Source: Fibrobacterota bacterium (GTDB lineage Bacteria; Fibrobacterota; Fibrobacteria; UBA11236). Taken from it: DNA of 48,419 nt. Each line of letters begins with the position of its first letter. Positions within the stretch are counted from its first letter, which is position 1. The stretch is taken from positions 1-48,419 of the forward strand of contig JAHFCH010000022.1 in NCBI GenBank assembly GCA_023249635.1, written 5' to 3'. The position numbers were made by a program, and so were the translations under genes. The notes under the pieces were generated by a model that saw only the letters and a program-made list of their open reading frames with translations, was not told the DNA's origin and did no database searches. Of this stretch, positions 4,175 through 34,316 are shown piece by piece.

Positions 4175-4272
4175 ACCTGAACAGGATTTATGGTTGCCCA
4201 ACCGGCATGAAAGTGCCTTGAATTTGCGGGAATCCCCGGTTTTTCCCCGCACATCACCTAACTTTTCAGGAA

Positions 4273-5700
4273 ATGGAGCGATTACCGGGCTTGAGTTGGG
4301 GGGAAGCGGGTCGGAAGGCGGCCCATATGGCGGCATTCTGGCCAGCGCTATTCCTGCCCTGGCTTTCGCCGCTCCAGGCCCTGGGCGTAACTCTCCTTCT
4401 CCTCCTCATGAATCTCTTCCTGCTCCCGAAAATCCTCCCTGGAGTCTACCGCGCCGAAGCCGAGGGGATGGGGGCATTGGAAGTGATCCTATATCCCGTC
4501 GCCTTGATGGCATGTGTAGTGGCCTACGGTTCGACCGAGGCCAACCGCGCGGGACTGGCTTGGTATATGCCGGTGATGGCCGCCTGGTTCGCCCTCGCCG
4601 GCATCGACGCGTGCATCGGTCTGGGTTGCCGGCTACTGGCCCGCGGCCCTTTGCTGCCGTGGAACGCCCGCAAGCCCGTAGCAGGCGTGTTACTGGGGGC
4701 GGCTTTGGCCGCCGTGCCCGCCTATTTCCTGGCCCGCTGGGCGTTGGCCAATGCCTTCATTCCCGATGGCGACGCCTGGCAGTACCGCACGCCGGCCCTC
4801 GCCGGTGTCGGCATCCTATTCCTGTTCGCCGTTTTGGCCGAAACCGTCTGGTTCGGGGTGGCGGACAACCTCATCGTCCCCTTCACGGTATGCGCGGCGA
4901 TTCCCCTCTTCCCGAATTTCCTTTGGCCCGCTCCCGGCGGCGCCATCCTGCTCGGTTCCGAAGTCTGGCTGCATGGCCACGGATTTTTCATCTTGGGAAT
5001 CGCGCTGGGATTCGGTTGCCTCGCCTGGCTCGCCCGGCTCCTCACCTTGGGAGGCGCGGCGCTGGGCGCGCTCCTGGCTTTCCTGCTCATGGCAGTCGAA
5101 CCCCGCCTGTTCCATTTCCTCATCGGGTTCTTCGTGCTGGGCAATTTGGCAACCCGCTTCGGCTTGGCGCGTAAACAAGCCAAGGGCATCGCCGAAGCGC
5201 GCAATGGCCGCCGGGGCGCCGCCGAGGTGTTCGGCGCCATGGGCGCAGCGGCATGGATGACCCCTTTGACCCATCTGGCCGGCCTCGGAATCGGGCCCCG
5301 GGGCGGTCTGCATCCCGCGCTACTGGTCGTGATCGCTCCTCTCATCGCCAAAACCATGGACACGGTCTCTTCGGAAATCGGCAAGGCGGTGGGGGGAGTA
5401 ACCATCTCGTTACGGTCGCTCCGGCCCGTGCCCGCGGGCTCAAAAGGCGGCGTCTCCCTGGCCGGTACGCTGGCGGGACTTCTCGCCTCGGCACTCATCA
5501 CCGCATACGCCGTCTATCTCGGGTGGGGAGGTTGGAGCGCGGGCGCCGGTCTGCTGGCCATCGCCATCGCCGCCAATGTCTTCGAATCGTACTGGGGCGA
5601 ATACGCGTCCAAGCGCGGACTCGATCAAGGCCCGCACACAAATATCCTCATGACCGTGTTCGCCGCCGTGCTTGCCTGGCTGCTCTTCGTCAATCTGTAG
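4273..5700 (+). CDS. DUF92/VTE6-type membrane protein with polyprenol-kinase-like N-terminal half
   Basis: A 475-residue polytopic membrane protein. The C-terminal half (about 285-475) is a DUF92 (TIGR00297) domain: RNGRRGAAEVFG, AKTMDTVSSEIGKAVGG, PVPAGSKGGVSLAGTLAG and a closing hydrophobic helix. Plant VTE6, of this family, is a phytyl-phosphate kinase. The N-terminal half has an RKAAHM motif near residue 14 and a glycine-bearing hydrophobic segment (EGMGALEVILYPVAL), recalling the CTP-dependent dolichol/phytol kinase family (VTE5/SEC59). If both halves are active, one polypeptide could phosphorylate a prenol twice; this is inference. The gene starts 174 bp from the divergent HxlR-type gene, with a candidate -7 box at 4259-4266. 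Confidence 0.75.
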   Translation: MERLPGLSWGEAGRKAAHMAAFWPALFLPWLSPLQALGVTLLLLLMNLFLLPKILPGVYRAEAEGMGALEVILYPVALMACVVAYGSTEANRAGLAWYMPVMAAWFALAGIDACIGLGCRLLARGPLLPWNARKPVAGVLLGAALAAVPAYFLARWALANAFIPDGDAWQYRTPALAGVGILFLFAVLAETVWFGVADNLIVPFTVCAAIPLFPNFLWPAPGGAILLGSEVWLHGHGFFILGIALGFGCLAWLARLLTLGGAALGALLAFLLMAVEPRLFHFLIGFFVLGNLATRFGLARKQAKGIAEARNGRRGAAEVFGAMGAAAWMTPLTHLAGLGIGPRGGLHPALLVVIAPLIAKTMDTVSSEIGKAVGGVTISLRSLRPVPAGSKGGVSLAGTLAGLLASALITAYAVYLGWGGWSAGAGLLAIAIAANVFESYWGEYASKRGLDQGPHTNILMTVFAAVLAWLLFVNL

Positions 5701-19517: not shown

Positions 19518-21890
19518 ATGTACCTTTTCTCCAAGTATTTCAATCCCCATAATTTCCGCTTCGCCGACGGCCAAGCGCAAGCCGGACTGCGTATCGGCGA
19601 GAAAGCGTTTTCCCTCGATGCCCGCATGGTGGGCGAAGACGTGTACCGCATCCGCATCGGCAACGATGCCCTGTGGCCCCAGGATCATAATCGCACGCCC
19701 CTGTTCGCGGACGAAAGCGGCGGCGAAGGTTTGCAGGGGAAGGCCACCCGGCTCGAGTCCGGTCGCGATGGTTCGCTTGCCCTCAAGGCGGGTGCCCTGG
19801 GACGCACTTTCCTGGCCTCCCTGCCCGGCGCGGCCTTCGGGGTTTGCGGGCGCGCCTGGATGTTCCAGTTCCGCCAGCGGCCCGACATGCAATTCTACGG
19901 GATGGGAGAAAAGAGCACGCCGTTCGAGAAATCCGATCGGGCCCATCGCTTCTGGAACACCGACGTTTGGGCCGATCACGGCACGTCCAAGGCCAAGGAC
20001 AAGACCTACGATCCCGACTATATCTCCGTCCCCTACGTGATCATCAAACGGGGGAATACCTACGCGGGATTGTTGCTGGACAATCCGCATGCCTCCGTCA
20101 TCAGCATCTCGCCCCGGCTCAACGTGGCCAACCAGATGATGGCCATGTCCCATGACGCCCCGTACTTCTTCGCCGGGTCCGAGGACGGCCCGCCCTGCCT
20201 ATACCTGCTTTTCGGCCCCAGCCTGGCCCAGCTCACCCGCAAGCTGCAGAAGCTGGTCGGCGTTTCGCCCCTGCCTCCCTTGTGGTCCCTGGGGCATCAG
20301 CAATGCCGCTGGGGCTACCGCGGCACCGAGGATATGGAATACCTGGCCGACAACTTCGAGAAGCACGAGTTCCCGAACGACGGTTTGTGGCTGGACATCG
20401 ACTACATGGAGGGCTACCGCGTCTTCACCTGGGCCAAGGAGCATTTCCGGGATCCCGCCGCGGAACTCGCCAAGCTGCAGGCCCGCGGCTTCAAGATCGT
20501 TCCCATCCTCGATCCGGGCGTGAAGAAGGAAAAGGGGTTCCCGGTCTACGATAGCGGGCACGCGGCGGACGTATTCTGCAAGAACGCGGCGGGAAGCGAA
20601 TTCACCGGCGTGGTCTGGCCGGGCTATACCGTGTTTCCCGATTTCTCCCTGGAGCGTACGCGCGCATGGTGGGCCGATCAGGTCTCGCGCTTCCTGGCCA
20701 TCGGCGCCGACGGGGCCTGGCTGGACATGAACGATCCATCCACCGGCCCGGTGGATTGCAACGCCATGCTGTTCCAGGAAGGCAAAGCGGCGCATGATGC
20801 CTACCACAATCAGTACGCTTCCCTGATGGCCCAAGCCACGCGCACCGGATTCCTGCAGGCCAGACCGGACAAACGCCCCTTCCTCATTTCCCGATCCGGT
20901 TTTACCGGGGGACAGCGCTTTTCGGCCCATTGGACCGGGGATAATTGGTCCAATTACCATCACCTGCACATGACCATCGGCAAGTCCCTGAACCTGGCGC
21001 TTTCCGGCATGCCGTTCAACGGCGGGGACGTGCCCGGCTTCGGCGGCAACTGCAAGGAGAACCTGTTCATCGATTGGTACAAGGCGGGTTTTCTTTTTCC
21101 GTTCTTCCGCAATCATTGTATGCGCACTTCGCGCCGCCAGGAACCCTGGGTCTTTTCCAAGGAGGCCATGGGCATCGCGCGCCGCTACATTCGCCTGCGC
21201 TATAAGCTCATCCCCTACCTTTACAACCTTTTCATCCGGCAAGAGGAAGAGGGCGAGGCCATCCTGCGCCCGCTGTTCTACGATTTCGAGGATACCCTCC
21301 GGCTGCCCCTGGCGCGCGTGAATGATCAGTTCATGATCGGCCCGTGGATAATGCAGGCGCCCTTTACCGTCGAAGAGGCCGAAGAGCGGGAGATCGCTCT
21401 GCCCGCGGCCCGTTGGTGGCGCGCCGACAAGCCCGGTTGGATCAAAGGTCCGCAAAGCCTGCGCTCCCGCAAGCACTCCGCGCACACGCCGTTGTTCCTG
21501 CGGGAAGGGGCCCTGTTGCCCATGCTGGAAGGCGTGGCCCGGGACAACCGCAAAAACCTGCTTTCCCTGGAATTGCTGGTTTGCCTTTCGCGCGCATTCC
21601 GCGGCCGCGCCGAGGCGCGCTACGCCTGCGATGACGGCGAGAGCTACGCCTACCGCACCGATGGCCGTAGCGAGTACGATCTGTCGGCGGAGATCCATAA
21701 GGGCGTACCGCACCTATTCGCGGTCCCGCGCAAAGAAGGCTTCGGTCGCCTACGTATCACGCCGGTTACCCTGGAGAAGTTCGACGCCCTGGATTATACC
21801 GGGCCGGACGGCCAAACGTCGCGTTTACGGCCGGAAGCCTTCACGAGCGATGCCTGGGGAGTGCCCGCGACGTTCTACGCTTGGCGCTGA
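19518..21890 (+). CDS. Glycoside hydrolase family 31 (alpha-glucosidase/alpha-xylosidase type)
   Basis: A 790-residue GH31 enzyme. The N-terminal beta domain includes MQFYGMGEKSTPFEK. The TIM barrel carries GLWLDIDYMEGYRVFTW, the nucleophile region DGAWLDMNDPS (Asp403) and the acid/base region HWTGDNWSNYHHL (Asp475). C-terminal beta domains follow (LFLREGALLPM). The family removes terminal alpha-linked sugars by retaining hydrolysis; alpha-glucosidase is likeliest, but substrate cannot be read from sequence alone. No signal peptide is seen, so it is probably cytoplasmic. GGAAGG lies upstream of ATG 19518. The gene stands alone, with no transporter beside it. Confidence 0.92.
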   Translation: MYLFSKYFNPHNFRFADGQAQAGLRIGEKAFSLDARMVGEDVYRIRIGNDALWPQDHNRTPLFADESGGEGLQGKATRLESGRDGSLALKAGALGRTFLASLPGAAFGVCGRAWMFQFRQRPDMQFYGMGEKSTPFEKSDRAHRFWNTDVWADHGTSKAKDKTYDPDYISVPYVIIKRGNTYAGLLLDNPHASVISISPRLNVANQMMAMSHDAPYFFAGSEDGPPCLYLLFGPSLAQLTRKLQKLVGVSPLPPLWSLGHQQCRWGYRGTEDMEYLADNFEKHEFPNDGLWLDIDYMEGYRVFTWAKEHFRDPAAELAKLQARGFKIVPILDPGVKKEKGFPVYDSGHAADVFCKNAAGSEFTGVVWPGYTVFPDFSLERTRAWWADQVSRFLAIGADGAWLDMNDPSTGPVDCNAMLFQEGKAAHDAYHNQYASLMAQATRTGFLQARPDKRPFLISRSGFTGGQRFSAHWTGDNWSNYHHLHMTIGKSLNLALSGMPFNGGDVPGFGGNCKENLFIDWYKAGFLFPFFRNHCMRTSRRQEPWVFSKEAMGIARRYIRLRYKLIPYLYNLFIRQEEEGEAILRPLFYDFEDTLRLPLARVNDQFMIGPWIMQAPFTVEEAEEREIALPAARWWRADKPGWIKGPQSLRSRKHSAHTPLFLREGALLPMLEGVARDNRKNLLSLELLVCLSRAFRGRAEARYACDDGESYAYRTDGRSEYDLSAEIHKGVPHLFAVPRKEGFGRLRITPVTLEKFDALDYTGPDGQTSRLRPEAFTSDAWGVPATFYAWR

Positions 21891-22340: not shown

Positions 22341-25211
22341 TTAATTCTTCTCCGCCAGGTATACGGTGCGCGGCAGAATGTACTCCTCGGTGGTGTTCAG
22401 GGGGCCGCCGCCCGAACCCTGGCTGGCGTAGATCCGGCCGTTGATCAAACCCACCGCATGCTGCTCCCGTGCCTGGATCATCTGATTGAGGGGCAGCCAG
22501 GTATTGTTGGCGGCGTCGAATTGCATGCAACCGGCCACCGATCCGCCGTTATTCCCGCCCAGGAGATAGACGCGGCCATTATCCACAACCGATCCGTAAT
22601 GGGAACGCCCGACCGGCAATGCCGCCGCCGTGCTCCAGGAGTTGGCGACCGGATCGTAAATCTCGTGGGCCGTGCTGGGCGACCCGCCCAGGGTACCGCC
22701 GGCCAGGTAGATCTTGCCGTTGAGAACCGCGCCTTCCAGATAGGCCCGCCAGGTGGGCATGGGATTCCCAGCTGCCCAGGTGTTGCTCGCGATATCGTAG
22801 ACGGCAGTGGTATTGTTGTGCGCCTGGGCCACGTTGGCATAGCCGCCGAACACGTAGATTTTCCCGTTCACGGTCGCCGAAGCGTGCCCCCAGCGCAGCG
22901 GCATGGGCGCCATGACCGTCCAGGAATTCCCGGCCGGATCGTAACGCCAGCAAACGCCAATCACGTTACCGCTGCCGTCGATGCCGCCCATGCTGTAGAG
23001 CTTTCCGCCGGCTTCGACCATGGAATGTTCGCGCGCGATGCTCGGCATGGACGCCACCGCGCTCCAGGTGTTCGCGGCGGGATCGTAGGCGTGCATGGCG
23101 TTGGTATTGGTGGCGCCGGTACTGCCTCCGCTCACGTACAGCTTACCGTTGGCTACGGCATGGGCCACGGCCGTGCGCGGTAACAGACTGTTGGCCTTGC
23201 TGATCCACGGCGTTTCGAAATTCACGCGGATGCCGGTGGAAATGAAGCCGAGGGGCGCGATGGGCGTGGCCAGCATAAGGGTGGTGCCGACCGGGAAGCC
23301 CGCGCCGTTGGCGATGGCGGTTACCGATGCCGCCGCCGAATTCGCGGCTACCTGTGCCGAGGTTGCGGATTGCGAAGCCTCGGTCGACGAAGTGGCGGCG
23401 GAAGCGGAAGCCGCGGTGGCGGTTCCGGAAGCGGTGGTGGCGGTGGTGGATGCGTTGACGGCCGCGCTGGATGCCGAAACCGCCGAGGTGGAAGCCGTGG
23501 TAGCCGAAGACGCGGCGGCCTGGGCGTTGTTCGCCGCGGTGCTCGCAGCGGCGGCCAGCGCCACTGCTTCGTCCACCTTGACCAGGATGGTGGCCAGGCT
23601 GGTGGCGACGGTGCCCGAAGCGTTGGTCAATTCCGAAGCCGAGGCGGCGGCGTTCTGGGCCGACTGCTGCGCGGCGGTGGCGCTGTTCCCCGCGGCGCCG
23701 GCCGCTCCCGTAGCCGTGGCGGCATGGCTGGCGGCCGAAGCGGCCGAACCGGCGGCCGAAGCGGCCGAACCGGCGGCGGCAAGGGCTGAGTTGTTGGAGG
23801 CGACGGCGGAATTGTTGGCGGCACCGGCGGAAGCCGCCGAGGCGGAAGCGGAGGTGGCGGCATCGGCGGCGGAATGTCCCGCGGTGGCGGCATAGGTCTG
23901 GGCCTCGCCGGCCGAGGCGGCGGCTGCGGCCACGGTGGCTTGGGCCTGGGCCGCCGAATTGCCAGATGCGGCAGCGGCGGCGGAGGCTTCGTTGGCCGAA
24001 GCGGCGGCGGCCGAAGCGCTGTTACCCGCGATGCCTACCGCAGCAGAAGTGGCCGCTTCGCTGGCCGCGGCGGCCGAGGCGCCAGCGGCCGCGGAGCCCG
24101 CGCTGGCGGCCGAGGCGGAGGCCGAAGTCTGCGAAGCCGAAGCGGAGTTTTGGGACGCCGTTGCCGAGGTGGCCGAGGCCGTGGCGGAACCGGCAGCGGT
24201 CATCGCCGAGCCTTGCGCGGCCGTCGCGGAACCGGCGGCGGTGGTAGCCGAGCCCGCGGAAGCGGTGGCGGATGTTTCCGAAGCGGTAGCCGAGGTTTGC
24301 GAGGCGCCGGCGGAAGCCGCCGAGGCGGTGGCCGATGCTTGCGCGGCGATAGCGGAGGTGCCCGCGGCGGTGGCCGAACCTTGCGCGGCGGTGGCGGAGG
24401 TACCCGCAGCCGTGGCAGAAGTGGCGGAAGCCGTCGCGCTGACGGCGGCGGCGGCGGCCGAAGCCGCGGCATCGGTGGCGCTGCCGGTGGCCGCGGTCGC
24501 GGAAGAGGCGGCGGAGCTTGCGCCCGAACCCGCGGCGCCGGCCTTGCTGCTGGCCAGGGCCGCGCTGCCGGCTGAAGCGGTAGCGCTGTTCGCGGCGGCG
24601 GCGGCGGCGGCATGGGCGGCGGCGGCGGCGGCCAGGGCCTGGGTGATATCGATGGAACTGGCAAAGGCATAACGCATTTCCAACAGCGGAGGCAAATCGC
24701 TGTCCTTGGAATCGAAGAAGGCATGCAGGCCGTCGGTGGTGACGAGCGCCAAGCCATGGAAAGTCCCAGCGGCCAAGGCCTGCCCCAGGTTGATGCGGAT
24801 CATCTTCTCGCAATCCGCGGTTCCGATGGCCAAGGTCGCGATGGGCGCATTGGCGTTGAACTTCACGTCATTGCCGTCGACCTTGGATTCCGGATCGGTA
24901 ATGGCCGCGGTCAGCGCGTAAATCTTGAGCGTGCCGGGTTTCTGGACCTGTGCCACGTGCATGGTCAAGGAGGTACCTGTGGTTTGCGCCAGATCGGCAC
25001 CGCCGGTATGGAAGGTGATCCAGGACAAGGCCTGCTTCTGCTTGCCTACCTCCAGGTATTGGTTCCCGTTCCCGCAATTCCAATTGATGGTCAGGTCGCC
25101 ATCCTTGTAAGGGAACATGTGCGTGGCAAGCTCGGACGCCGCGGCATAACGCGCGGCAACCAGCGCCAGGCAAAAGCAAAAAGCGATCGGGAATGGTTTG
25201 GGCACGTGCAT
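22341..25211 (-). CDS. Secreted protein: beta-sandwich head, ~440-residue Ala/Ser/Thr heptad stalk, C-terminal Kelch propeller
   Basis: A 956-residue exported protein. A signal peptide (about 1-25) is followed by a beta-sandwich resembling DNRLRE-type domains (30-185). Residues 193-635 are almost only Ala, Ser, Thr, Gly, Gln and Asn. At 258-376 they form 17 uninterrupted heptads of the type SATAxxx, the pattern of tail-fibre stalks in phages such as lambda Stf. From about 680 there are six Kelch blades (NGKLYVSGG, GGKLYSMGG, NGKIYVFGG, NGKIYLAGG, NGRVYLLGG, NGRIYASQG), each with a YDP.ANTW-type turn. A trimeric fibre carrying propellers on the cell surface is inferred. GGAG lies six bases before the ATG and a clear promoter lies at 25285-25313. 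Propeller folding cannot be confirmed by reading. Confidence 0.85.
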   Translation of the reverse strand: MHVPKPFPIAFCFCLALVAARYAAASELATHMFPYKDGDLTINWNCGNGNQYLEVGKQKQALSWITFHTGGADLAQTTGTSLTMHVAQVQKPGTLKIYALTAAITDPESKVDGNDVKFNANAPIATLAIGTADCEKMIRINLGQALAAGTFHGLALVTTDGLHAFFDSKDSDLPPLLEMRYAFASSIDITQALAAAAAAHAAAAAAANSATASAGSAALASSKAGAAGSGASSAASSATAATGSATDAAASAAAAAVSATASATSATAAGTSATAAQGSATAAGTSAIAAQASATASAASAGASQTSATASETSATASAGSATTAAGSATAAQGSAMTAAGSATASATSATASQNSASASQTSASASAASAGSAAAGASAAAASEAATSAAVGIAGNSASAAAASANEASAAAAASGNSAAQAQATVAAAAASAGEAQTYAATAGHSAADAATSASASAASAGAANNSAVASNNSALAAAGSAASAAGSAASAASHAATATGAAGAAGNSATAAQQSAQNAAASASELTNASGTVATSLATILVKVDEAVALAAAASTAANNAQAAASSATTASTSAVSASSAAVNASTTATTASGTATAASASAATSSTEASQSATSAQVAANSAAASVTAIANGAGFPVGTTLMLATPIAPLGFISTGIRVNFETPWISKANSLLPRTAVAHAVANGKLYVSGGSTGATNTNAMHAYDPAANTWSAVASMPSIAREHSMVEAGGKLYSMGGIDGSGNVIGVCWRYDPAGNSWTVMAPMPLRWGHASATVNGKIYVFGGYANVAQAHNNTTAVYDIASNTWAAGNPMPTWRAYLEGAVLNGKIYLAGGTLGGSPSTAHEIYDPVANSWSTAAALPVGRSHYGSVVDNGRVYLLGGNNGGSVAGCMQFDAANNTWLPLNQMIQAREQHAVGLINGRIYASQGSGGGPLNTTEEYILPRTVYLAEKN
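23307..24635 (-). repeat. Low-complexity heptad-repeat DNA (period 21 bp)
   Basis: The segment coding for the Ala/Ser/Thr stalk. The 21-bp period is clearest at 24084-24440 (17 heptads). Codons vary between copies, so the repeat is kept at protein level rather than being a recent DNA expansion. Confidence 0.8.
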
Positions 25212-29255: not shown

Positions 29256-29945
29256 TTAGTGGTGGCGGCCGCCGCGGCCTCTTCCATGCCTGCCCTCGTG
29301 CCTGCCCTCGTGCCCGCCCATCGGCTTATCCGAGCAGGCTTCATGGGTCTCATGCACCAGCCAGGGATAATCCGCCGCACTGCTGTCGGCGGCGGCCAGG
29401 GAGGTCTTCAGGGAATCGCACAGGGCCGCGCGGGCGGCCGAGTCGAGCAGCACGTGATGGGGCGGCTCGAAGCAGGCGCGGGCGGCATGCAGCTTGGCTT
29501 CGCCGTAGCCCGAGTCCGTCGAATCCATGCCCGTCACCACCGCGGTCAGGGAATCGCACAGGGCGGCGCGGGCGGCCGAATCCAGGCGCGGTCCATGGAA
29601 GTCATCGCCGTCGAAGTCGTCGCCAGGCCCGCGGCCGTGATGGCCTTCTCCGCCTTCCATCAGTCGATGGGCCTTGGCCGTGTCGATGATGCAGGTATTG
29701 ATCAGGGTATCGATGAGCACCGCGGAATCATTCCCTGCGCCATGGGCGCGGGCGCAACGGGCGCGAAGGCCGGCGCAGTCTCCGGAATCCTTCACGTCCA
29801 GCGCGAGCAGCGCCGACTGGGTATCTTGCGTGTTACTGGCGCCGGCGGAGTCGTCTCCCCCTATGCCTTGACAGCCCAAAAGCAGCGCGGCGGCGAAGCC
29901 CGCTCCGGCCAGGGTCCATTTCGTCTTAGTCGACAAGTTATCCAT
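29256..29945 (-). CDS. Lipoprotein with three Cys-bracketed modules and His/Gly-rich tail
   Basis: Family not recognised. 229 residues; the signal peptide ends LLLGC with the lipidated Cys at 25. Three modules each begin and end with Cys exactly 28 apart: 57/85, 130/158 and 176/204. Two of them open with the same LDSAARAALCDSL. Between modules 1 and 2 and at the C-terminus lie His/Gly/Arg/Asp-rich stretches that could bind metal. The first pair (57/85) has the same numbering as in the neighbouring 442-residue lipoprotein, and the signal peptides are alike, so the two are paralogues. GGAGGACGA precedes the ATG. Periplasmic or surface location and disulfide formation are inferred. Confidence 0.8.
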   Translation of the reverse strand: MDNLSTKTKWTLAGAGFAAALLLGCQGIGGDDSAGASNTQDTQSALLALDVKDSGDCAGLRARCARAHGAGNDSAVLIDTLINTCIIDTAKAHRLMEGGEGHHGRGPGDDFDGDDFHGPRLDSAARAALCDSLTAVVTGMDSTDSGYGEAKLHAARACFEPPHHVLLDSAARAALCDSLKTSLAAADSSAADYPWLVHETHEACSDKPMGGHEGRHEGRHGRGRGGRHH

Positions 29946-30031
29946 TCGTCCTCCTCGGGGGTGTTGAAAGGGTGGTATGCAATAGGATACGCGCCTGCCT
30001 GTGCTTCAGAGTATACGCGGGGACAAGAAAT

Positions 30032-30048
30032 GCGGGGATGGTTTGTCC
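30032..30048 (+). promoter_or_regulatory. Shared upstream motif, copy 1
   Basis: GCGGGGATGGTTTGTCC, 87 bp before the start of the 229-residue lipoprotein gene (motif antisense to that gene). It overlaps a dyad: GCGGGGACAA at 30018-30027 is the near-complement of TTGTCCGCGC at 30043-30052. Confidence 0.5.
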
Positions 30049-30120
30049 GCGCAATCGCGTACCATTTGGGACGCGTCAAGAATGGGTAAATCATGGATTG
30101 GTAAAATCACCGCGGGAAGG

Positions 30121-30151
30121 AAAAAAAAGGGGGAGGCAACCAGCCTCCCCC
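30121..30151 (-). terminator. Strong rho-independent terminator
   Basis: GGGGGAGGC/GCCTCCCCC, a perfect 9-bp stem with a 5-base loop, followed on the minus strand by eight T. It ends the 442-residue Cys-repeat lipoprotein gene, so that gene is not co-transcribed with the downstream 229-residue paralogue. Confidence 0.93.
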
Positions 30152-30210
30152 TTCCCCACCGAATGCCCTGGGCCCCCGCCGGGACGGGGCTTGAGGGCTT
30201 CCGTTGCGCG

Positions 30211-31539
30211 TTACTTCACTACGGGAGCGTCCGGGCAATGCTCCTTGATCGAACCCGCGATGCGGATGGCGTCGGCCGAAGCGGGATCCAGGCCCGCCAG
30301 CTTCTTACGCAGCTCATCGCAGTTCACCGTGGTTACCGGGGGAACCGGGACCGGCACCGGGTCCATGCACTTGGCCTTGAAGGCGGCTTCCAGCTCGGCG
30401 CGCTGGGCATCGGTGGTGGCCTTGGAAAGGCGCAGTTTGAGATCCGCGCAGATGGAATCATGCGCCGTCATGGGCGGCTTCGGGTCGGTAATCACCGGAG
30501 GCTTCTCCGGGCAATGTTCCTTGAGCGTCACCATCAGGCGCTGAGCGCTGTCCGAGGCAGGATCGAGCCCGGCCAGCTTCTTGCGCAGTTCGTCGCAGTT
30601 CACCAGCGGGGGCTTGATCACCACGGTGTCCTTGGGGGGAACCACGACCATGCACTTGGCCTTGAAGGCGGCTTCCAATTCGGCACGCTGCGCGTCGCTG
30701 GTGGCCGCGGACAGGCGCAGTTTCAGATCCATGCAGATGGAATCATGGTCGGTCATTGGGGGGTGCACGATTACGGTATCCTTGGGCAGGTCGCCGCATT
30801 TACGGGCGGCGAACATATGCTCCAGGTCCGCGCGGCCGGCATCGCCCGGATGGGTCGCGGCCAACTTTTCCCGCAACATGCGGCAGGTGTCGTCGGGAAG
30901 GGGCTTGGGCGGTACCACGATAGTGTCGTGGGGCAGGTCACCGCATTTGCGGGCGAGGAAATTGTGCTCCAGCTCGGCGCGGCCGGGTTCACCGGGCTTC
31001 GTCAGCCTCAGTTTCTCGGCGAGCATACGGCAGGTGTCATCGGGAAGCGGCTTGGGCGGAATAGGCGGAATCGGATCGTGGCACAGCCGCTCATGAGCCA
31101 CGGTATCGTGGATCTCCAGCTTGCGGCAATCCTCGGGACAATACTTCTTGTACGAGACGGTGAGCGAATCGCGGCCGCCTTCGATCTGGGACACGATCCA
31201 CCTGCAACGGGTGCCCGAGTCGGGCAACAGGGCGGGAGGGATGGTCGGCTTCGGCATATCCTTGGTTACTACGACTTCCTTGACGCAAGTCGAGAGGAAG
31301 ACCATCTCGGCGGCACTGTCGGCACGGCCGGCGGTGCGGGCATCCAGGATGGAGCGCCATTGTTCCCGGCACGAGCTGTCATCCTTGATGGAGAGGCTCA
31401 GCGATCCGGTGGCTCCGTCATCGGTCGTGGTCACGACTTCGCTTTTCTTATCCGAGTTGTTCAGGAAATCCTGGCAACCCAGCAGCAGACCGGCTGCGAG
31501 GCCAAGTCCTGCCAGGTAACGAAGGGTTGGATGCGACAT
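30211..31539 (-). CDS. Lipoprotein with eight tandem Cys-bracketed helical modules
   Basis: Family not recognised. 442 residues; signal peptide ends LLLGC (Cys22). Eight Cys pairs follow at 57/85, 112/134, 170/199, 219/248, 269/296, 315/343, 364/391 and 407/435. The modules are predicted amphipathic helices (for example CDELRKKLAGLDPAS...KEHC and CADLKLRLSKAT...KAKC) joined by Pro-rich linkers (PPIPPKPLPDDT, VVPPKDTVVIKPP). The last four modules alternate in two types (A-B-A-B), showing a duplication of a pair. Each module could be a helical hairpin closed by a disulfide, giving a rigid string outside the cell; this is inference. AGGAGG precedes ATG 31539. It is a paralogue of the 229-residue neighbour. 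Confidence 0.82.
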   Translation of the reverse strand: MSHPTLRYLAGLGLAAGLLLGCQDFLNNSDKKSEVVTTTDDGATGSLSLSIKDDSSCREQWRSILDARTAGRADSAAEMVFLSTCVKEVVVTKDMPKPTIPPALLPDSGTRCRWIVSQIEGGRDSLTVSYKKYCPEDCRKLEIHDTVAHERLCHDPIPPIPPKPLPDDTCRMLAEKLRLTKPGEPGRAELEHNFLARKCGDLPHDTIVVPPKPLPDDTCRMLREKLAATHPGDAGRADLEHMFAARKCGDLPKDTVIVHPPMTDHDSICMDLKLRLSAATSDAQRAELEAAFKAKCMVVVPPKDTVVIKPPLVNCDELRKKLAGLDPASDSAQRLMVTLKEHCPEKPPVITDPKPPMTAHDSICADLKLRLSKATTDAQRAELEAAFKAKCMDPVPVPVPPVTTVNCDELRKKLAGLDPASADAIRIAGSIKEHCPDAPVVK

Positions 31540-31625
31540 TAGGTATTCCTCCTGGTGCACGTTGCGGCACCTGGGATAAGGATACACGGTGCCAAGGGGG
31601 GATGCGGATAAAAAAATGCCCGGAA

Positions 31626-31646
31626 GCGGGGATTATTTGTCCTCAC
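31626..31646 (+). promoter_or_regulatory. Shared upstream motif, copy 2
   Basis: GGGGATTATTTGTCCTCAC (31628-31646), 87-107 bp before the start of the 442-residue lipoprotein gene. It differs from copy 3 at one base in 19. Confidence 0.55.
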
Positions 31647-31780: not shown

Positions 31781-31801
31781 GCAGGGGATTGTTTGTCCTC
31801 A
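31781..31801 (+). promoter_or_regulatory. Shared upstream motif, copy 3
   Basis: GGGGATTGTTTGTCCTCAC (31784-31802) lies 55 bp before the ATG of the TIGR02147 regulator. It could serve as an autoregulatory site. Confidence 0.55.
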
Positions 31802-31844
31802 CTTTGGAGGCCTTTTCCAGGCCATTCTCCGGGGTCCGGGGTAG

Positions 31845-31850
31845 TATACT
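31845..31850 (+). promoter_or_regulatory. TATACT -10 box directly before the TIGR02147 gene
   Basis: TATACT ends six bases before the ATG at 31857, with no ribosome-binding site between. Transcription would start at or next to the start codon, suggesting a leaderless mRNA. No good -35 was seen. Confidence 0.4.
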
Positions 31851-31856
31851 TTGCAC

Positions 31857-32789
31857 ATGGACCCCAAGGGCCGAAACGAAGAGGATAAGGAACCTGTCCG
31901 CGGATCCGCGGATGCGGAATCCGCCGGCGAGGTCGCGCCTTCCACTACGCAGTGGAGCGGACCCGCTCCGCAAATCCTCCAGTACCTCGACTACCGCGAT
32001 TTCCTGCGCGACTTCTACGCCCATCGCAAAAGCGTGGACGGGGATTTTTCCCAACGCACTTTCGCCCGCGAAGCCGGTTTGCCCGCCTCGTGCTCCAGCC
32101 TATTGCCCGCCATCATCAAGGGCCGCCGTCAGCTGAGCCAGAACCTGCGCATCAAGTTCGGCAAGGCCATGCGCCTTTCCGAACGGGACTACCGCTACTT
32201 CGATCTGTTGGTGCAATTCAACCAGGCCAAGGGCATGACGGAGAAGAATTTCTTCTTCGCCCAGTTGGCCAAGTTCCGCAGCTCGCGCGCGCAAATCGTG
32301 GGCGAGACGCAATACCGGTTCTTCTCGAAGTGGTATTACTCGGCGGTGTGGAACTACTTCGGCATCGACCAGAAGACGCGGCATCCCGGCGCCATCGCCG
32401 CCAATATCCTTCCGCCCATCACGCCCACCCAGGCCGAGGAGGCCATCAAGCTGTTGCTCGAGCTGGGCCTAATCAAGAAGACCGCCAGCGGGTATGCCGT
32501 GGCCGAGCGGCATATCTATACCGAGAAGAACGTGCAAGCCATGGCGGCGCGCCAGCACGTGCAGGAACTGATGGGCATGGCCGCCGAGGTCTTCCCCACC
32601 CTCCCGGCCGAGCAACGCCAATACAACGCGCTGATGTTTTCCATCTCCAAGGACGGCTTCCAGGCCATCAAGGATCGCATCCGCTCCTTCCAGGAAGAGC
32701 TGCGGGAAATCATCGATCATGACAACAAGGAAGACCGCGTCTATACGCTGACCATGCAACTCTTCCCCAACAGCAAGGTCCCGGAGTGA
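31857..32789 (+). CDS. TIGR02147/DUF4423 family putative regulator
   Basis: A 310-residue protein of the TIGR02147 family, known mainly from Fibrobacter and related phyla. After about 40 disordered residues come ILQYLDYRDFLRDFYAHRK and FSQRTFAREAGLPASCSSLLPAIIKGRRQLSQNLRIKFGKAMRLSERDYRYFDLLVQFNQAK. The latter contains a helix-turn-helix (about 70-100). The C-terminal DUF4423 region (FSKWYYSAVWNYFG...EAIKLLLELGLIKKTASGYAV) follows. DNA binding is inferred; no target has been proved for the family to my knowledge. It is divergent from the Cys-repeat lipoprotein and 93 bp upstream of another lipoprotein, with a shared motif at its own promoter. Confidence 0.9.
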   Translation: MDPKGRNEEDKEPVRGSADAESAGEVAPSTTQWSGPAPQILQYLDYRDFLRDFYAHRKSVDGDFSQRTFAREAGLPASCSSLLPAIIKGRRQLSQNLRIKFGKAMRLSERDYRYFDLLVQFNQAKGMTEKNFFFAQLAKFRSSRAQIVGETQYRFFSKWYYSAVWNYFGIDQKTRHPGAIAANILPPITPTQAEEAIKLLLELGLIKKTASGYAVAERHIYTEKNVQAMAARQHVQELMGMAAEVFPTLPAEQRQYNALMFSISKDGFQAIKDRIRSFQEELREIIDHDNKEDRVYTLTMQLFPNSKVPE

Positions 32790-32838: not shown

Positions 32839-32846
32839 TACTTTTG
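32839..32846 (+). promoter_or_regulatory. Candidate -7 box TACTTTTG
   Basis: An exact match to the Bacteroidetes-type -7 element TAnnTTTG, 36 bp before the ATG at 32883. The expected -33 TTTG is not clear (GGTTC instead). Confidence 0.4.
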
Positions 32847-32882
32847 TTCCGGGAAGGGATTGTCCCCCCGGCCTTTGAGATT

Positions 32883-34316
32883 ATGCCGCAAATCCGCCCC
32901 ATCGCTTCCGCGTCCCGCCGCGCCGGTCCCCTTACGGGTCCGCTCTGCGCTGCCGTCGCCCTGCTCGCCGGTCTGCTCTCCGATTGCGGTAAGAACCAGG
33001 ACACCCTGGCGGGCACCAGCTCCGGCGTCGACAATCCCGCCATTACCGTAAGCTTCCGCGACGGCGCCACCGCCGCCAGCGTCACGGGCACGCTGGACGT
33101 GTATTCCTCTGAGCAGAATCCCGCCGTGGATCCGGTGCCCCTGGCGACCATTCCCATCGACAACCAGGTTTCCACCGTCCTGCGCGGTTCCGATTTCAGC
33201 CGCGAGATAACCGCCGCCACCAAACTGGGCAACACGGGACTTTCCAAATCCTCGGCGGCGCATTCCACCGTCACCGTATTCAACCTGGTGCTGCGTACCC
33301 ACAACAAGACCGGCAACCTGGTATTGGGCCTTACCTTCGATTCCGCCGGCCATGCCTTCCTGGGCCCGGGCGGCGGCAAACTCAAGGGCGTTTCCCTGCA
33401 GCCCAAGCCTCTGGTACGTTACGAAGCGCGCATCGCCCGGGAAGCCGTGCATGGCGATGCCGGCCGCGTATTCGTGCCGGGATCCCCGTTCCTGGGCACC
33501 CTTGTCGATAGCCTCTTCATCCTCGAGGACGTTCCCGAGGGCATGTTCCCCATGCGCTTCATCGCCGCCGACGGCAAAGTTTATCCCATCGCCGATTCGT
33601 TGAACACCAAGGACTCGGCCCGTGTCTACCGGCCTGCCATCGTTCCGGTGGGCAGCATCGACACTACGGGCAAGCACGATACCATCCCGCAGTTCGAAAT
33701 CAGCGCCGGCATCGATCGCAAAGTGTTGCTGGGCCAGCAGGCGGTCTTGGAAGCCAAGCTCATCGGCGTGCAGCCCACCGATCCGCGCCTCTCGGTACTG
33801 TGGACCTGGATGCGGGATCCCGCCGATTCGGTCCCGCACGATACCCTCCCGCCGATCAAGCCCGGGCTTCCGCCCCGCCGCGCGGAAATCCTCACCCCCA
33901 CCGCCCTCCGCTCCGAAGTCCGCTTCGACGCGGACGGCATTTATCGTTTCCTGGTCACGGCAACCGTGGGTGTGCGTTCGCATTCCGACACGGTAACGGT
34001 GCAAGTGCAACGCCCCGAGCCCCCCAAGCCGGCCATACTTCACCCCGTACCCGCGGAATCGCTGGTGGTGCTCAAGTCCTACGATATCCAATGGGCCATG
34101 CCCGGCAAAGGACCGTACACGATCGAATTCTCCCCCAACAACGGGGAGAAATGGATGCCGATAGCCACGCATTACCAGGGCCGCGAAAGCCTGCAAACCT
34201 TCCCATGGACCGTTCCCGAGGCAGGGGTTTCAGCGCGTTGCCTCCTCCGCGTGTCCGACGAAGTGGATACCTTGGCGCATGCGGTGATGGCCGGGAACTT
34301 CAGCATCATCCATTAG
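32883..34316 (+). CDS. Lipoprotein with Ig-like C-terminal region
   Basis: A 477-residue protein, family not recognised. Signal peptide with Cys35 as the probable lipidation site (LLSDC, an unusual Asp at -1), then a linker DTLAGTSSGVDNPA and a beta-rich N-terminal domain with SVTGTLDVYS. Residues about 270-380 resemble a PKD/Ig-like domain (VLLGQQAVLEAKLIG...LWTW...DGIYRFLVTATVG). A fibronectin/Ser-Thr-rich-anchor-like domain ends it (SYDIQWAMPGKGPYTIEFSPNNGEKW). It follows the TIGR02147 gene in the same direction; genomic pairing with that regulator suggests a shared role. The ATG at 32883 was chosen as the only start giving a normal signal peptide length. Confidence 0.75.
   Translation: MPQIRPIASASRRAGPLTGPLCAAVALLAGLLSDCGKNQDTLAGTSSGVDNPAITVSFRDGATAASVTGTLDVYSSEQNPAVDPVPLATIPIDNQVSTVLRGSDFSREITAATKLGNTGLSKSSAAHSTVTVFNLVLRTHNKTGNLVLGLTFDSAGHAFLGPGGGKLKGVSLQPKPLVRYEARIAREAVHGDAGRVFVPGSPFLGTLVDSLFILEDVPEGMFPMRFIAADGKVYPIADSLNTKDSARVYRPAIVPVGSIDTTGKHDTIPQFEISAGIDRKVLLGQQAVLEAKLIGVQPTDPRLSVLWTWMRDPADSVPHDTLPPIKPGLPPRRAEILTPTALRSEVRFDADGIYRFLVTATVGVRSHSDTVTVQVQRPEPPKPAILHPVPAESLVVLKSYDIQWAMPGKGPYTIEFSPNNGEKWMPIATHYQGRESLQTFPWTVPEAGVSARCLLRVSDEVDTLAHAVMAGNFSIIH

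Follow-up and report, generated by a model that had tools for sequence, protein, structure and literature searches.

The stretch of Fibrobacterota DNA analysed here (the window, 48,419 nucleotides) raises the question of what two adjacent lipoproteins built from small Cys-bracketed modules might be, what they might do, and with which genes they are controlled. The two genes, A and B, lie beside a divergently transcribed gene that is a clear member of the TIGR02147 (Fsuc_second)/DUF4423 paralogous family of Fibrobacterota (Table 1). Both products carry an LLGC lipobox, the GC of which is kept in every orthologue by inspection; by their lipoboxes they qualify as bacterial lipoproteins and may be located at the outer-membrane surface. 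The earlier note had called B a paralogue of A, and their first ~88 residues are indeed related (33% identity, E 3.5e-4 and 4.3e-5).

Table 1. Features of the lipoprotein locus in window coordinates
Feature	Position	Strand	Remarks and evidence
Gene B, 229-aa paralogous lipoprotein, lipobox Cys25	29256..29945	-	three modules, basic His-containing tail; orthologues in 3 other species
B module 3 (C176-C204)	29334..29420	-	Cys map, orthologues
B module 2 (C130-C158)	29472..29558	-	Cys map, orthologues
B module 1 (C57-C85, extra conserved C64)	29691..29777	-	Cys map, orthologues
Putative -10 box TATCCT of gene B	29984..29989	-	offset analysis
Element as in gene A, 15-bp core, 2 mismatches, gene B	30034..30048	+	59 bp from -10 box
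Gene A, 442-aa lipoprotein, lipobox Cys22	30211..31539	-	eight Cys units with Pro-rich linkers between; ORF and Cys map, orthologues in 4 other species, AlphaFold2 hairpins
A module 8 (C407-C435)	30235..30321	-	72% identity to module 6; used for single-module prediction
A module 7 (C364-C391)	30367..30450	-	89% identity to module 5
A module 6 (C315-C343)	30511..30597	-	Cys map, AlphaFold2 model, module comparison
A module 5 (C269-C296)	30652..30735	-	Cys map, AlphaFold2 model, module comparison
A module 4 (C219-C248)	30796..30885	-	70% identity to module 3
A module 3 (C170-C199)	30943..31032	-	Cys map, AlphaFold2 model, module comparison
A unit 2, four Cys (C112, C134, C138, C153)	31081..31206	-	kept in all five species
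A module 1 (C57-C85), N type	31285..31371	-	Cys map, orthologues, AlphaFold2 model
Putative -10 box TATCCT of gene A	31579..31584	-	offset analysis
Promoter element GGGGATTATTTGTCCTCAC of gene A	31628..31646	+	58 bp from the -10 box of A
Same element, 1 mismatch, at TIGR02147 gene	31784..31802	+	61 bp from -10 box
Putative -10 box TATACT of TIGR02147 gene	31845..31850	+	in 11-bp block identical across five species
TIGR02147/DUF4423 gene, candidate regulator	31857..32789	+	TIGR02147 E 3.4e-68; DUF4423 E 4.2e-32; genus orthologues 82-88% identical
Lipoprotein gene directly 3' of TIGR02147 gene	32844..34316	+	same order in genus members and both sister-genus genomes

The eight Cys pairs that had been listed for the 442-residue protein were all recovered at their positions in the ORF and Cys map, with spacings, in order, of 28, 22, 29, 29, 27, 28, 27 and 28. 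Their description as modules of about 28 residues holds for seven of them (27-29 apart), whereas the pair 112/134 is part of a separate four-Cys unit, C112-x21-C134-x3-C138-x14-C153, the last two Cys of which were missing from the earlier list. Eight of the steps from one Cys to the next in A span 26-30 residues (the seven modules plus the C85-C112 linker), and 5000 random placements yield at most six; the same count for B alone is not significant (p 0.06). The three pairs of B, listed as each exactly 28 apart, are so placed, and the spacing is kept in three other species. A third Cys in the first module of B (C64, window 29752-29756) is conserved in four of four species, so that the number of Cys in B stays odd; it could serve to link B to a second B chain or to a different protein. 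The basic, His-bearing C-terminal tail of B is likewise present in all four species, most strongly in two.

With respect to fold, the modules had been proposed to be disulfide-closed helical hairpins joined by Pro-rich linkers. AlphaFold2 predicts a helix-loop-helix for a single module taken together with 24 aligned homologous modules (pLDDT 88, helices 4-13 and 19-31), and a helix-turn-helix in every module of full-length A modeled with three orthologues, mostly at pLDDT 70-84. The two Cys of the single-module model stand at 4 and 32, the open end of the predicted hairpin, and one disulfide probably closes each hairpin. DsbA-like proteins are encoded in all three genomes tested; VKOR was not found in any of five genomes. 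Across five species of the genus, the Cys spacing is exactly 28 in 27 of 31 modules and 27 or 29 in the remaining four, a conservation of the pair that is partly by construction because the modules were picked by their Cys pairs. Loop sequences are conserved within module type (DPASADY, KPGEPGRADLEH). The linkers are as rich in Pro as had been supposed (26%, versus 2.4% within the modules), but the further idea of a rigid string is unsupported: the linkers are predicted to be disordered (pLDDT <50) and the whole-chain pTM is 0.27, so that beads on an extended string are a more suitable picture.

No named domain had been recognized in A or B, and none was recovered by sequence searches of Pfam, NCBIfam, PHROGs or PDB; the best matches in the first three are isolated and below the curated cut-off (e.g. 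PF23646, E 0.005, 17.6 bits vs 27). A search with a profile of the modules returned no family match in the same four collections. A match of the module profile to SipB (E 0.0094) spans an 18-residue turn only and was taken as chance. Foldseek recovered nothing for full-length A at E 0.001, and for the single module Foldseek and VIA-align recovered generic hairpins only (best Z 4.4, not meaningful for a helical unit of this small size). The best Foldseek match in shape is the lumenal helical hairpin of PsaF from photosystem I, with ~27 residues aligned at rmsd 0.6-1.1 A and TM 0.63-0.70. The PsaF hairpin is also disulfide-closed; however, PsaF is a photosystem subunit, all E-values are above 1 and the hairpin is a common shape, and we claim no kinship. 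Searches of viral contigs, phages and plasmids found no relatives. In the same phylum, the Fibrobacter surface families TIGR02145 and fibro-slime are also lineage-expanded extracytoplasmic proteins (PMC4704652, PMC3079729), but they comprise larger domains with no match to A or B.

The suggestion of a lineage-specific repeat family agrees with the phyletic pattern: of 168 Fibrobacterota genomes searched, only five have A and only four have B, and these belong to a single genus, three of them being metagenome-assembled Fibrobacteres/Fibrobacteria. A profile of 27 modules recovers the same genomes plus one of the sister genus, G161 (E 3.7e-4; none of 300 shuffles reaches the score). Short, scattered module-like matches in more distant Fibrobacterota (E 0.03-1) were left out of the count. 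The G161 lipoprotein combines one C-x27-C module (Cys exactly 28 apart) with a long Pro-rich DSLRP string, and its gene occupies the place of gene A, being transcribed divergently from the gene that is orthologous (62% identity) to the TIGR02147 gene of the window. At the same place in G162, also of the sister genus, is a gene for a Pro-rich string without a module.

Within the genus the architecture of A is variable: the unit order is N-T-C-C-B-D-B-D in the window, N-T-C-C-D-B-D in G159, N-T-C-D-B-D in G156, N-T-C-C-D in G157 and N-T-(one-Cys remnant)-D in G158. The count thus goes from eight units down to three and, with one module in G161 and none in G162, spans 0-8 overall. The A-B-A-B duplication reported in the earlier note corresponds to modules 5-8 (the first units of each pair 89% identical, the second 72%) and is seen in the window's genome only, as judged by module comparison across species. 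By sequence, this B-D-B-D tail is a recent duplication, since identity between its two B units is 89%, versus no more than 59% with the B units of other species. Across the genus, A is conserved at 36-52% protein identity, B at 46-60% and the lipoprotein downstream of the TIGR02147 gene at 47-51%, whereas the TIGR02147 protein reaches 82-88% and argH 83-84%; the lipoproteins evolve much faster than the regulator and argH. In the family's ten genomes a close orthologue of the regulator and a lipoprotein of this kind are either both present or both absent. A further lipoprotein in G156 (L096, 4001-4609), with two C-x26/28-C units, fits in layout but its kinship to A is not significant (shuffles 32% and 4%), which makes it no more than a lead; its gene is divergent from a close TIGR02147 paralogue and has the same promoter element as described below.

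This element, which is absent from the earlier note, is new here: it is common to A, B and the divergent TIGR02147 gene and occurs almost nowhere else in the genomes searched. Two copies of GGGGATTRTTTGTCCTCAC lie at an interval of 156 bp between A and the TIGR02147 gene, and a third copy precedes B; in the window, matches to the core with at most two mismatches number 5, versus 0.15 expected. When as many as three mismatches are allowed, the entire genome of the window has two occurrences of the 19-mer, both at this locus; G157 and G158 likewise have it at this locus only, and G159 has one site elsewhere. In G156 it is found at this locus and in two copies before the close TIGR02147 paralogue (66% identity). 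G155, a genome without the locus, has no occurrence at the same threshold, and a reversed control yields 0-1 hits in each genome. The copies form islands when the five A-TIGR02147 spacers are aligned. In all 12 lipoprotein promoters a TANNNT box lies 57-59 bp downstream of the element, and in all 7 regulator promoters 59-61 bp downstream of it (chance ~3% each), counts that include both sister-genus lipoproteins and the G156 paralogue and are not independent because the compared sequences are related. The B site in G156 has 5 mismatches and is degenerate, and 3 mismatches are present in the site of the G161 lipoprotein. Thus, all 19 promoters show a class I-type spacing, with an offset of 57-61 bp to the putative -10 box; a site centered near -63 is the position of a class I activator.

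The candidate regulator scores 230 bits against the TIGR02147 model (cut-off 50; positions 3-271 of 272). Its promoter block GTAGTATACTT (window 31845-31857) is identical in five species, and ATG 31857 follows six bases after the end of the -10 box, so that a leaderless mRNA is probable; this ATG is probably the start of the gene, in which case the listed ORF start, TTG 31851, would be wrong. The lipoprotein gene that follows it is probably in one operon with it.

Gene order is no proof of the identity of the binding protein, which is most likely the TIGR02147 protein, probably acting as an activator rather than a repressor. We consider it unlikely that the element serves some other factor, or repression, with A and B merely in the small regulon of that factor. 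Such a reading could draw on the fact that no DNA-binding (HTH) domain was detected in the N-terminus of the TIGR02147 protein by Pfam or PDB sequence searches; against it, all seven promoters of the regulator itself carry the element, which, beyond this locus, recurs at the closest TIGR02147 paralogue in G156, and it stands at the distance from the -10 box expected of an activator bound upstream, whereas a repressor would overlie the box.

Taken as a whole, we favor, with moderate confidence, the explanation that the locus is a small regulon that includes envelope lipoproteins in the form of bead-strings of stapled hairpins. A and B would be secreted and held in the envelope by a lipid anchor, each consisting of small, independent beads strung together, in which every module of ~36 residues would form two antiparallel helices, with a disulfide from the start of helix 1 to the end of helix 2 stapling the open end, and the Pro-rich linkers would hold the beads apart. 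Gain or loss of beads would alter the length and display of the protein and leave the anchor untouched. A, B and the TIGR02147 gene along with its downstream lipoprotein would be transcribed from promoters with the shared element centered ~63 bp upstream of the start; binding by the TIGR02147 protein would make the regulator and the lipoproteins rise and fall together. The most economical inference appears to be that A and B act at the surface as spacers or display strings that can be extended, because the string is kept where the modules are lost.

The alternative that the modules serve as functional heads and not as spacers, with stapled hairpins that bind partners on the cell surface, for instance in a multi-headed protease inhibitor or as antimicrobial units, strikes us as rather improbable. 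A parallel is presented by the plant alpha-hairpinins and vicilin-buried peptides, which have the same disulfide-closed hairpin architecture in short units of variable sequence and number, arranged in tandem in vicilin leaders (PMC7191063, PMC12497738), and the helix-loop-helix fold of the alpha-hairpinins is shared by our single-module model. However, alpha-hairpinins are defined by the Cys motif XnCX3CXnCX3CXn with two disulfides (PMC7191063), a motif that the repeat modules lack, and whereas the plant peptides are secretory proteins with two disulfides between CX3C motifs, each repeat module is flanked by single Cys and belongs to a bacterial lipid-anchored protein; no sequence similarity between the two was found. 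Functional heads would also accord with the fast evolution of the lipoproteins, which suits a contest with something outside, and with another TIGR02147 locus of the window's genome, L071, where a divergent Pro-rich lipoprotein (4250-4714) has a weak match to Kazal-like protease inhibitors (E 2.2e-4, just below the curated cut-off). The conservation of the loops within module type argues against such a function, as does the sister-genus protein that keeps the string at the same place without a module. Still less probable is metal binding by the Cys pairs and the His tail of B, making A and B envelope metal buffers or sensors: the Cys are paired and conserved, with the odd C64 and the tail kept in B, but the repeat modules have one Cys per helix end and no CxxC/CxxH cluster, A lacks a His tail, and neither protein matches a metal-related family.

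The TIGR02147 family is heavily expanded in this lineage, and a literature search found no paper naming it and no described target, DUF4423 being named in just one paper searched, which lists a Bdellovibrio protein. At E 1e-20 the family is matched 77 times in the window's genome, and of 20 TIGR02147 loci read, many have a same-strand lipoprotein gene directly downstream, like the locus described here. Divergent lipoproteins occur at a few: the Kazal-like one at L071, Pro-rich ones at L060 and L097 (G159), and that at L096 (G156). We put forward, only tentatively, that TIGR02147 proteins, of which there are dozens per genome in this lineage, may be local activators of private, fast-evolving sets of surface lipoproteins, each with its own element ~60 bp upstream. 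If true, the stapled-hairpin strings would be the cargo of one such cassette and the family a combinatorial switch of the cell surface. The 19-bp element with its fixed promoter spacing at one member, which suggests control of neighboring surface lipoproteins by the family, offers a testable handle on family function. The module, in turn, is a compact and genetically simple building block of 36 residues with one probable disulfide, freely added or removed, as in the natural variants with 0-8 units.

Elsewhere in the window, 22341-25211 encodes a 956-aa protein with a long Ala/Ser-rich stretch followed by a Kelch propeller. A related-looking palindromic site, ATTGGACCGGGGATAATTGGTCCAAT, is present at 20937-20951 with a near-identical counterpart in G156 (L022, 17439), and is possibly the site of another regulator. 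Upstream of the TIGR02147 genes at L069, L071 and L074 there are TTTGTYC boxes, paired in L069 and L071 (ATTTTTGTTCNC); they number 5 in 23 promoters versus 0.6 in shuffles, for a pattern chosen after looking, and could represent the elements that belong to further members of the TIGR02147 family.
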